A stretch of 64,000 bases of DNA from Fibrobacter sp. UWT2 (lineage in GTDB: Bacteria; Fibrobacterota; Fibrobacteria; Fibrobacterales; Fibrobacteraceae): NCBI RefSeq assembly GCF_900142545.1, contig NZ_FRBF01000002.1:186001-250000 (forward strand), in the 5' to 3' direction. Below, piece after piece: positions 60,135 through 63,353 of this stretch (the stretch's first letter is position 1; the number at the start of each line of letters is the position of its first letter). The notes below the pieces were generated by a model that worked only from the letters and a program-made list of their open reading frames with translations, was not told where the DNA came from and searched no databases. The position numbers were made by a program, and so were the translations under genes.

Positions 60135-60629
60135 TCAAGTATCGTTTTCAAAATTTAGGGACATTATTTCGTCTTTGAAATACTGCAAAGCGGAATACCG
60201 AATTACCGGTTTATCGAGATTTTCCCCAGTCTTTATACAATCGAGATAATACTTCAAGAACGCCCGGAACCGCGCTTCAATCGTTTTCATATTGTCGTGC
60301 ATTTCGATGAATTCCGCATGGTCGATAACCGCATCCTTGCCGATATCCCGTTCAGTCACAACGACTGCTTTTGAAAAATCCAAAGCAGGAATTTTCCCTT
60401 CCTTGCTTAGACTGCGTCGGCCAGATGTCGAAAAGAAGAAACAGTGCGATATTTTACCAAGTTTTGGACGGTGTGCGCTGGTGCGAAATGGAACGGCAAA
60501 GGTGAGCGCCCCAACCTGGATAACCAGCACGAGATGAGGCCTTTCCTGCTTGCTTAATATTTCAGCATGGTCCTTATGACGTTCAAAAAACTCGGCGTTT
60601 AGCCGGACAAGAGAATGATTTTCTAGCAT
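60135..60629 (-). CDS. ToxN/AbiQ-family endoribonuclease toxin 1 (type III TA)
   Basis: A 164-residue toxin of the ToxN/AbiQ fold. Family blocks are visible: RLNAEFFERHKDHAEILSK, RPHLVLVIQVGALTFAVPFRTS, ALDFSKAVVVTERD and a helical C-terminus (~105-160) ending near SALQYF. It parallels toxin 2 (62862) in order and spacing of these blocks. Such proteins are RNases held inactive by a repeat RNA. GAGGAAAAT precedes the ATG. Upstream in the same direction are two ~50-base antitoxin RNA repeats and a terminator, the classic type III arrangement. Specific cleavage sequence unknown. Confidence 0.88.
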   Translation of the reverse strand: MLENHSLVRLNAEFFERHKDHAEILSKQERPHLVLVIQVGALTFAVPFRTSAHRPKLGKISHCFFFSTSGRRSLSKEGKIPALDFSKAVVVTERDIGKDAVIDHAEFIEMHDNMKTIEARFRAFLKYYLDCIKTGENLDKPVIRYSALQYFKDEIMSLNFENDT

Positions 60630-60638
60630 ATTTTCCTC

Positions 60639-60680
60639 AAAAAAAAATGCCGTCTTTTATACTTTCATATAAAAAACGGC
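60639..60680 (-). terminator. Intrinsic terminator between antitoxin RNA 1 and toxin 1
   Basis: On the minus strand GCCGTTTTTTATA pairs with TATAAAAGACGGC around TGAAAG, followed by nine T residues. Partial read-through sets antitoxin excess in type III systems. Confidence 0.92.
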
Positions 60681-60780
60681 ATCAAATTGGTCTTTCTTTT
60701 TTATCTCAGGCAGCGACCTACCGCCCTGTTTCATCAAATTGGTCTTTCTTTTTTTCTCAGGCGGCGACCTACCGCCCTGT
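60680..60780 (-). ncRNA. Type III antitoxin RNA 1: two ~50-nt repeats
   Basis: Repeat R1 (60780-60730, 51 bases) and R2 (60729-60680, 50 bases). Both begin ACAGGGCGGTAGGTCG and share CCTGAGA then AAAAAGAAAGACCAATTTG. GGCGG pairs with CCGCC (R1) or CTGCC (R2), and the loop GGTC pairs with the downstream GACC, giving an H-type pseudoknot with an A-rich loop like ToxI. -10 TATATT lies at 60795-60790, with TTGCTT 17 bases upstream. The toxin should cut the precursor into single units that bind it. Confidence 0.85.
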
Positions 60781-60847
60781 TCTGTGCTTAATATACAAAA
60801 ATTTCTCTGACAAAGCAAGTGAAATTTCGAAAAGGTTCTAAAAACGC

Positions 60848-60872
60848 AAAAATCCTCCGTAGGGGAGGTCAG
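60848..60872 (-). terminator. Terminator of the small antitoxin-like gene
   Basis: On the minus strand CCTCC-CCTAC-GGAGG then ATTTTTG. It separates the small gene from antitoxin RNA 1. Confidence 0.78.
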
Positions 60873-60884
60873 CACAAAAAGGGC

Positions 60885-61073
60885 CTAAAATTTCTTCCTT
60901 ACGTCTGCAGCATAAAGCCACCCGCCTTGCTCGGCGGATCGTTCGCCCTCGGCAAGAGCCTTCTGGAGTTTCATTTCTGATTGAAGAAAGTTTGCATATT
61001 CCTTTTCGAAAGCCACTTTCTGCTTCGGGTCATCCATAATTCTATCAAATGTCGATGTTGGTTTTATCATCAT
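60885..61073 (-). CDS. Small protein, type II antitoxin-like, with no partner
   Basis: A 62-residue charged helical protein. The C-terminal half (FEKEYANFLQSEMKLQKAL, then SAEQGGWLYAADVRKKF) has the look of short antitoxins whose tail wraps a toxin, but no toxin gene is next to it and no family is firmly recognised. TTGACA-17-TAGATT lies upstream, six bases before the ATG, so the start is leaderless-type; AGAGG overlaps the same place. Its own promoter and terminator argue that it is a real gene. Confidence 0.6.
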   Translation of the reverse strand: MMIKPTSTFDRIMDDPKQKVAFEKEYANFLQSEMKLQKALAEGERSAEQGGWLYAADVRKKF

Positions 61074-61141
61074 ACCTCTAATCTATTTTCAGATTATCCC
61101 ATTGTCAAGAGATTATTCTAATCACCCAAAAAATTTGGGGG

Positions 61142-61191
61142 CATCAAATTGGTCTTTCTTTTTTATCTCAGGCAGCGACCTACCGCCCTGT
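61142..61191 (-). ncRNA. Solitary type III antitoxin repeat (R3)
   Basis: All 50 bases are identical to repeat R2 (60729-60680), and the preceding CAGA equals that before R1. It is followed by a CCCAAA-TTT-TTTGGG hairpin instead of toxin 1's terminator and has no strong -10 box (TTTATT at the expected place). No toxin gene follows; the next gene is the 62-residue antitoxin-like protein. It is either a remnant of duplication or a stand-alone antitoxin RNA. Confidence 0.75.
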
Positions 61192-61204
61192 TCTGTATCA
61201 AATA

Positions 61205-61232
61205 AAAAAAATCTCCGTGGGGGAGATGTTCC
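61205..61232 (-). terminator. Terminator after the RhuM remnant
   Basis: On the minus strand ACATCTCC-CCCAC-GGAGAT and then TTTTTTTT. R3 begins about 12 bases beyond it. Confidence 0.82.
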
Positions 61233-61246
61233 CCTTTCGTTTTTTT

Positions 61247-62139
61247 TCAAGCATTGGTGCTTTCCTGTACTTTCTCGATAACCTCCTCAGGGGTCACAAA
61301 GTTCAGAACGCTATAAGCGGTCATTTCATTGCCCATATCTTTGAAACTAGCCCCAAAGTGATAGACTGTGTCATCAATCAGCAGGAACCGGTCGTGAATC
61401 GTCCGCATCGTCTTTAAATCTAGGTCAGGATATTGCTTTTTGTGCAAGGCTACAGCCTCCTTGAATTCGGGAGTGATTCTTGGAGAATAAATAACGGCCT
61501 TGACGCCCTTCATACGCATCGCCGCAAATTTCAGTACTTCGATTGTGGCATACGGGTCAATAAAAACTACAGAACGCTTCGCCGACTTCACGAGATCAGC
61601 AATTAAAACGAGCCCGTCAAAACGTGTTCCAGTCGCAAGTATGCCTCCTGTAGGAGTTTGCGAAGCCTTGACGAAGAAATCGATGCGTTGTTCGACCGCA
61701 GAAAGGCGGGAATCCTGTTCGGCTATGGATTTTTCCACACCTTCAATTTTTACATTTTGGTCCTCAATTAGCTGCCGCTGCTCATGCAAACGGTCTACAA
61801 TTTGCAAGTCTGTTGCAATTTTTCGTTGGTTTACGGCGTACCATTTGCCGATTTTACACGATAACCCACAGACAAAATCATGTCTAAATCATAGTGCTCA
61901 ACTTGATAAATTTTGCCGTCATCGGCAGTTGTCGCAAATTTTGCGACAACTGAATTTTGACATTCTTCCCTCAAAGCATTTGTGATATGCTTACCTACCG
62001 TTTTAATGTCACGATTGAACAATAGCGCCAATTGTTGACGATTCAGCCATACGGTCTCGTTTTCAACACGAACCTCCAACCGGACTTCACCATCCGGCTG
62101 GTAGAGCACAATTTCACCTTTTTCTTCTTTTTTATCCAT
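61247..62139 (-). pseudogene. Broken RhuM-family gene with PLD-like C-terminal domain
   Basis: Two frames represent one gene. Frame A (62139-61831, 102 residues) carries the RhuM N-terminal DNA-binding domain (ETVWLNRQQLALLFNRDIKTV, VVAKFATTADDGKIYQVEHY, ILSVGYRVKSANGT). In intact members the next residues are QFRxWA..., which are missing. Frame B (from about 61850 to 61247) resumes at YAVNQRKIATDLQ with a coiled coil and a PLD-like domain (FIDPYATIEVLKF; IHDRFLLIDD). The join falls at GGTACGCCGTAAAC, consistent with a ~50-base deletion between short matching sequences, which shifted the frame. AGGAG precedes the ATG. Confidence 0.78.
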
Positions 62140-62382: not shown

Positions 62383-62637
62383 ATGCTTCATGTGACTGAC
62401 GCGAAATATATTGGCGATTACAAGATATCCGTCGAATTCAATGACGGATGCCGTTTTGTCGCTGATTTCGAAAGCGTCATCAAGTCGGACCACCGCCCCA
62501 TCGTGCAGCAACTAGCAGACATCAATACCTTTAAGGATTTCACATTGCAAGCGCACACAATCACATGGTCAAATGGCGTTGATTTTGCCCCGGAATACAT
62601 CAAGAGCCTTCAGAATTCCGAATCCTATCCAGCTTGA
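62383..62637 (+). CDS. DUF2442 protein
   Basis: An 84-residue protein with the DUF2442 pattern: VTDAKYIGDYKISVEFNDG, then FESVIKS, LADINTFKDFTLQAHTITWSNGVDFAPEYI. DUF2442 genes usually accompany a DUF4160 gene and may form part of a toxin-antitoxin pair; no DUF4160 is present here, so it is a solitary copy. The palindrome at 62365-62378 immediately upstream could be its own operator. Length standard for the family (about 80-90). Confidence 0.86.
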   Translation: MLHVTDAKYIGDYKISVEFNDGCRFVADFESVIKSDHRPIVQQLADINTFKDFTLQAHTITWSNGVDFAPEYIKSLQNSESYPA

Positions 62638-62661: not shown

Positions 62662-62690
62662 TTGTTTTTTGTTAATGAATAATGTATATT
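62662..62690 (+). promoter_or_regulatory. Promoter of antitoxin RNA 2
   Basis: TTGTTT (62662-62667) and TATATT (62685-62690), 17-base spacing, then TGGGTTAGA. Predicted start ~62697, two bases before the first repeat. Confidence 0.8.
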
Positions 62691-62698
62691 TGGGTTAG

Positions 62699-62798
62699 AT
62701 AGGGTGGCAGAGTATCCACCTGAGAAAAAAAGAAAACTCAAATTGATGACAGGGTGGTAGAGCGACCACCTGAGATAAAAAAGAAAGCTCATTAGATG
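62699..62798 (+). ncRNA. Type III antitoxin RNA 2: two 50-nt repeats
   Basis: Repeats U1 (62699-62748) and U2 (62749-62798). Both contain AGGGTGG, CCACCTGAGA and AAAAAAGAAA. GGTGG pairs with CCACC. The loop GAGT (U1) pairs with ACTC, and GAGC (U2) pairs with GCTC. The RNA differs from antitoxin RNA 1 at paired positions, but every change keeps pairing (GGCGG/CCGCC there, GGTC/GACC there). This is strong internal evidence for a pseudoknot fold. Confidence 0.88.
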
Positions 62799-62841
62799 AA
62801 GTCGTTTTTATATATCCATATAAAAACGGCTTCTTTTTTAT
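62798..62841 (+). terminator. Intrinsic terminator between antitoxin RNA 2 and toxin 2
   Basis: GAAGTCGTTTTTATAT pairs with ATATAAAAACGGCTTC (16 bp with one G-U) around ATCC, followed by TTTTTTA. Confidence 0.93.
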
Positions 62842-62861
62842 TTGGATAAAAAAGGATAATT

Positions 62862-63314
62862 ATGAAAAAAGAAGATGCTCCAAAAGTTATGTTGCTGTCA
62901 CCAATATTTTATGAAAGGTATGCTGATAATACAGAAATTCTTGCGAAGAAAAATCGTCCGTATTTAGTCTTGCTTGTGGAATATCGTTCCCTAAAATTTG
63001 CGATTCCGTTTAGATCGAATATCCAGCATACGCATGCGTACAAATTTGAATGCGAAAACGCAAAGCGCACATCATCGGGTCTAGATTTTAGTAAAAGTGT
63101 CATCATATTCAATGAAGATGAAGTGGGGATGCCGGCGCATATTGACTCAAAAGAACATACGGAGCTGATGAAACGCTATGTGTTTATTGTGGAAAAATTT
63201 CAAAAGTATATAGATGATTTTATAGAAGGCTTGAACAAAGAGCCTTTGCCTCCTAAATACAATTTTTCGTCATTAACCTTTTATCGAAGTTATTTGATAA
63301 AAACGGCCAAATAG
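62862..63314 (+). CDS. ToxN/AbiQ-family endoribonuclease toxin 2 (type III TA)
   Basis: A 150-residue ToxN-family protein: LLSPIFYERYADNTEILAKK, NRPYLVLLVEYRSLKFAIPF, RSNIQHTHAYKF, GLDFSKSVIIFNEDE and a helical C-terminus (KYVFIVEKFQKYIDDFIEGL-like) ending SLTFYRSYLIK. It is closer to the ToxN consensus (IPFRSNI.H..AF; GLDFSKAVII) than toxin 1. AAGGATAATT precedes the ATG. It follows antitoxin RNA 2 and its terminator and is convergent with the CBM6 gene, sharing a terminator. An RNase that cuts A-rich RNA in related systems; target here unknown. Confidence 0.9.
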   Translation: MKKEDAPKVMLLSPIFYERYADNTEILAKKNRPYLVLLVEYRSLKFAIPFRSNIQHTHAYKFECENAKRTSSGLDFSKSVIIFNEDEVGMPAHIDSKEHTELMKRYVFIVEKFQKYIDDFIEGLNKEPLPPKYNFSSLTFYRSYLIKTAK

Positions 63315-63325
63315 AGCAAAAAATG

Positions 63326-63353
63326 AAAAAATCCTCCGCAGGGGAGGATTTTT
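63326..63353. terminator. Bidirectional terminator between toxin 2 and the CBM6 gene
   Basis: AAAATCCTCC-GCAG-GGGAGGATTTTT, with A and T runs on both sides, between convergent genes. Confidence 0.9.

Follow-up and report, generated by a model that had tools for sequence, protein, structure and literature searches.

The feature at positions 62662-63314 (+) of the window, the 64,000-nucleotide stretch of Fibrobacter sp. UWT2 analysed here (C2:186001-250000 of a 3.49-Mb assembly, which the genome-wide searches cover), is very probably a TenpIN type III toxin-antitoxin module, presumably with the mechanism of the characterised family, and together with the similar module beside it represents two old lineages. 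For this module (system 2), comparison strongly indicates that one promoter drives two pseudoknot RNA repeats, followed by a terminator and by the gene of a toxin with the ToxN fold. In the type III systems characterised so far, the toxin processes the precursor to single repeats, these inhibit the toxin in a closed complex, and the short-lived RNA is lost during infection, which frees the toxin (PMC5086642, PMC5377504); the TenpIN system of Photorhabdus aborts some phages (PMC5377504, PMC5086642). By analogy with this family, the terminator of system 2 would pass little transcription, so that the antitoxin RNA would be in excess over the toxin. The toxin would act as a ribonuclease, cleaving the precursor RNA between the repeats, and the pseudoknots would keep it inactive by holding it in a closed complex. 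Once a phage halts host transcription, the short-lived RNA would be lost, the toxin freed, and the infected cell would die or stop growing.

All the parts described in the preliminary description are present where it placed them: i) a promoter, TTGTTT-17-TATATT, at 62662-62690 (+), with the -35 box TTGTTT at 62662-62667, a 17-nt spacer and the -10 box TATATT at 62685-62690; ii) two TenpI-type direct repeats of 50 nt at 62698-62747 (+; stem 1 GGUGG/CCACC, stem 2 GAGU/ACUC) and 62748-62797 (+; stem 1 GGUGG/CCACC, stem 2 GAGC/GCUC), 72% identical to each other and belonging to lineage T2; iii) an intrinsic terminator of 16 pairs and a T-run at 62798-62833 (+), between the array and the toxin gene; iv) an intact toxin gene, tenpN of lineage T2, at 62862-63314 (+), with an ATG start and 150 codons for amino acids, recognised from its open reading frame, its match to NCBIfam NF047358 and its predicted fold. 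Considered alone, the promoter is at chance level, since seven promoter-like sites were observed against 6.8 expected in shuffles. However, the order promoter-repeat-repeat-terminator-toxin is kept in the relatives of system 2, and therefore the layout is not due to chance.

TenpN was found in 37 of the 111 genomes of the Fibrobacter family, and the toxin tree contains three clades: T1 (which includes system 1, the neighbour), T2 (system 2) and T3. Among the 48 loci read, 41 carry two repeats, one carries three, three carry a single repeat and three have none (L010, which ends at a contig edge, and L044 and L047, with broken toxins). A -10 box TATATT precedes 44 of 45 arrays of the relatives, a TTG-type -35 box precedes 44 of 45 as well, and the distance from the end of the -10 box to the first AGGG is 9-14 nt.

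The toxin of system 2 scores 122.4 bits against NF047358 ("type III toxin-antitoxin system TenpIN family toxin"), whose cut-off is 90, and 15 of 15 relatives match this family too. On the other hand, the Pfam ToxN family (ToxN_toxin, PF13958) has no match in the genome, nor in the toxin proteins (hmmscan up to E 1), and the toxin is therefore named TenpN instead of "ToxN homologue". PDB sequence searches with the toxins gave chance matches only, and PADLOC reported nothing for either toxin. In an AlphaFold model built from a 15-sequence alignment (pLDDT 86.4), the best VIA-align neighbours are five type III toxin structures, i.e. AbiQ (Z 11.7), ToxN (10.9/10.6/10.4) and CptN (9.5), the next one being MazF (Z 6.4). 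Foldseek gave middling TM-scores only (0.5-0.58) on the same model. Residues K29, R32-P33, P49-F50-R51, D75 and K78 are invariant among the 15 relatives. Because neither Pfam ToxN nor the PDB sequence searches provided a match, the assignment as a probable ribonuclease is based on family and fold.

Compared with known systems, the module shares with ToxIN, AbiQ and CptIN the toxin fold (in the predicted model) and the pseudoknot RNA repeats before a terminator, but ToxI and antiQ repeats are 34-36 nt long (PMC5086642) instead of 50 nt, and the toxin lacks the sequence match to Pfam ToxN. With the TenpIN system of Photorhabdus luminescens it has in common the toxin family (NCBIfam equivalog model) and the arrangement of repeats, terminator and toxin as one unit; the host phylum is different.

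Compensatory changes in both stems strongly indicate that each antitoxin repeat forms an H-type pseudoknot. Stem 1 is GGUGG/CCACC or GGCGG/CCGCC in each repeat, and stem 2 is formed by the loop of stem 1 pairing with the sequence 3' of an A-rich stretch. Across 38 distinct Fibrobacter repeats, stem 2 occurs as GAGU/ACUC, GAGC/GCUC, GGGU/GCCC, GGUC/GACC, GGUU/AACC, GACC/GGUC and GGCC/GGCC; 99.3% of its cells are paired, with changes on both sides in three of four pairs, and for the whole pseudoknot 99.2% of 380 cells are paired. No shuffle reached the observed number of paired cells, of both-side cells or the score of the whole pseudoknot, bearing in mind that cells count sequences and not events, and that related sequences can exceed shuffles. 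A further 23 repeats come from outside Fibrobacter (Clostridia, Fusobacteria, Spirochaetes and viral contigs): 100% of their stem 2 cells are paired, three of the four pairs of this stem covary, and so do all seven pairs of stem 1. Slid controls collapse in both repeat sets. A nested hairpin, UGAG/CUCA, was considered as a rival structure and rejected, with 59.9% of cells paired and no covariation. Plain free-energy folding of the repeats gives non-pseudoknot structures, as expected from a procedure that cannot show pseudoknots.

Decay of system 2 to a remnant without function is extremely improbable. Decay does happen at this locus, as both toxins are broken there in the relative G034. However, the copy in the window is intact, the G054 copy of the toxin is 100% identical to it at the protein level, and the T2 toxin genes are, judging from their substitution rates, under purifying selection: dN/dS is about 0.06 for the tenpN of the window against three relatives and 0.04-0.07 in four comparisons of T2 genes, values that are approximate because dS is 1.2-1.6, with 0.32 in one very close pair. 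A broken toxin next to an intact array was found in L022, L024, L031, L041, L045 and both G034 systems; the reverse case, an intact toxin with a broken array, was not seen at the loci where the contig gives a view. The antitoxin array thus seems to outlive the toxin gene. Selection, together with toxin family, fold, repeats, terminator and pseudoknot covariation, bears out the type III toxin-antitoxin assignment made at the beginning.

A second system of the same architecture on the opposite strand had also been announced, and it is system 1, at 60135-60818 (-). It consists of a promoter, TTGCTT-17-TATATT, visible in the sequence at 60790-60818 (-), two T1 antitoxin repeats spaced 51 nt at 60678-60781 (-; stem 2 GGUC/GACC), a terminator at 60646-60683 (-) and a tenpN gene of lineage T1 coding for 164 amino acids at 60135-60629 (-), which matches NF047358 with 90.6 bits (cut-off 90). 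Its promoter lies about 1.8 kb from that of system 2, and the two point away from each other.

This proximity had been explained by duplication and divergence. The relatedness of toxins and repeats stands, whereas a recent local duplication does not agree with the 30% identity of the two toxins (98-100% among close relatives at the locus), with their separate clades and with the loci that carry system 1 only. An origin by local duplication at this site, followed by divergence, is very unlikely: the systems are side by side in opposite orientation with related toxins and repeats, and a forced T1+T2 sister clade is not rejected by the AU test (p-AU 0.29), but T1 and T2 are each spread across many Fibrobacter species at other loci, and the best toxin tree joins T1 to T3 (100/93) and not to T2. 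Whichever tree is preferred, the two lineages predate the species considered here. G054 has both systems at the same locus, with toxin 1 frameshifted and contigs that break at an insertion in a DUF2442 gene, and G034 has both arrays with both toxins broken. In G043 and G029, the locus holds system 1 and, in place of system 2, a type II module (modules named by eye from open reading frames). Two widespread clades and loci with system 1 beside a type II module suggest that the adjacency of systems 1 and 2 is a secondary co-location in a site of toxin-antitoxin turnover, rather than a recent tandem copy.

Further features lie between and next to the two systems. A single T1 repeat at 61140-61192 (-), identical to 60678-60730, has neither an intact -10 box nor a toxin; comparison with L141 and L140 suggests that this orphan is likely a recombination remnant. 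It stands at one end of a 1.2-kb segment missing from G054, and its upstream sequence resembles that of the G034 array, but with the -10 box altered. A RhuM/PDC-S05-like gene at 61247-62139 (-) is present as two open reading frames (61831-62139 and 61247-61807), apparently frameshifted; at its place L141 has a different, related and intact gene of 310 amino acids. Also in L141 (G034:C124), toxin 1 is truncated after about 25 residues and toxin 2 has a deletion after its start, both arrays being intact. The DUF2442 protein encoded at 62383-62637 (+) has a sub-threshold match to a DhiA-like antitoxin and no adjoining toxin partner; in G054, a small antitoxin-like open reading frame precedes the DUF2442 gene, which is split by an insertion element. 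A reading frame of 62 amino acids at 60885-61073 (-), conserved in G043 and G054, looks antitoxin-like by eye and has no significant family match. Finally, short GC-rich hairpins of the CCTCCGNAGGGGAGG type stand beside genes at 60840-60868, 61198-61226 and 63319-63347, and are probably recurring terminators.

Regarding specificity, the two neighbouring systems probably do not fully cross-neutralise, as suggested by their differing pseudoknots. Stem 2 is separated from the 3' side of stem 1 by a junction of 1 nt in 19 of 19 T1 repeats, 2 nt in 11 of 11 T2 repeats and 3 nt in 8 of 8 T3 repeats, and the length of this junction may set specificity. Related to this, no same-lineage pair was observed among 14 co-resident pairs in the family genomes, against 4.5 expected by label shuffling (P 0.002), a count which leaves out a toxin-less T1 array in G034 beside an intact T1 system elsewhere and which includes many incomplete assemblies. 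This absence fits systems that would be redundant if they cross-neutralised, and hence diverged specificity, without proving the latter; it could also reflect vertical descent with one locus per lineage, and relatedness of the genomes. The alternative, that each RNA neutralises both toxins and that the two systems do not differ in specificity, draws on stem 1 and the A-rich linker, which are nearly alike in both systems, and on a 19-nt core, CCTGAGATAAAAAAGAAAG, exactly common to their repeats. It is rather unlikely, since stem 2 and the junction that follows differ by lineage, the junction length in all 38 distinct repeats, and different lineages co-occur whereas same-lineage pairs do not. 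Diverged specificity of the two systems, as previously proposed, is thus plausible from these sequence comparisons.

The repeats of system 2 also resemble a catalogued RNA, the 6A RNA of Rfam (RF02925), which is typed only "sRNA" and has a threshold of 41.2 bits. In a relaxed search this family falls exactly on both repeats, with 30.1 bits on repeat 1 and 31.1 bits on repeat 2, i.e. below the threshold, and these were the only RF02925 matches found in the genome. Both RNAs have a unit of about 50 nt (~52 nt in 6A RNA), the hairpin loop UAGAGC, the A-rich AAAAGAAA and then GCUC; the Rfam model, unlike the pseudoknot described above, consists of one hairpin, with stem 1 included and stem 2 left out.

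6A RNA is often found in tandem before tenpN in Clostridia, Fusobacteria and Spirochaetes. Outside Fibrobacter, RF02925 matches above threshold in 18 of 20 tenpN loci, where it lies immediately before the toxin gene and often comprises two or three units, and it is also above threshold in a Fusobacterium record. Repeats built on the same plan, but out of reach of the Rfam model, occur at some further tenpN loci (Bacilli, Klebsiella, Vibrio). When 391 clostridial genomes were searched, 6A RNA appeared in five and tenpN in 17, and in each of the five genomes with the RNA a distance of 59-94 nt separates its end from the tenpN match that follows on the same strand. Three of these five genomes were previously known as tenpN carriers, so that two cases are independent. 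From its position and structure, 6A RNA looks like a TenpI-type antitoxin repeat. No report linking it to TenpIN was found in literature other than the 2017 source paper on 6A RNA and the primary TenpIN classification papers. In a microbiome survey of 2021, other structured RNAs upstream of ToxN were proposed as ToxI antitoxins (PMC8040213). Another RNA motif from comparative genomics, the RCd22/abiF motif (RF03085), precedes an abortive-infection gene in the AbiF system (PMC12373285), a parallel only, because both RNA and gene are different.

Viral sequences were also considered. BLASTN of the 6A arrays against named phages gave no match, and viral contigs scanned with single toxin proteins gave nothing, whereas the toxin alignment recovered nine distant tenpN relatives on them. 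Independently of the toxin, a pattern describing only the RNA sequence found 17 loci on viral contigs: eight are followed by tenpN, and three, situated in coding or other sequence, look like chance occurrences. The other six are 6A-like units with no tenpN in the part that was read, and four of these exceed the Rfam threshold. The toxin-less units include L162 1551-1601 (-) and L164 5579-5656 (+), both of which look like an array with a terminator, L165 10907-10958 (-), near a tRNA-Glu gene, L169 851-903 (+), with just 281 nt readable downstream, and L170 1384-1434 (+). It is possible that such units are decoy antitoxins or remnants. That all of the following hold jointly is unlikely: TenpIN lineages made orthogonal by the 1/2/3-nt junction, 6A RNA as the TenpI of Clostridia, Fusobacteria and Spirochaetes, and the toxin-less viral units (L162, L164, L165, L169 and L170) as decoy antitoxins.

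The module of the window is itself ordinary, an intact TenpIN system beside another of a different lineage that adds members to a known family. Beyond it, a likely function, that of a type III antitoxin, can be assigned to an RNA catalogued just as sRNA, and the TenpI pseudoknot gains comparative support. With junctions that differ by single-nucleotide steps, the three co-resident lineages constitute a natural set for RNA-toxin specificity, and the toxin-less 6A repeats on viral contigs are candidate anti-defence RNAs.
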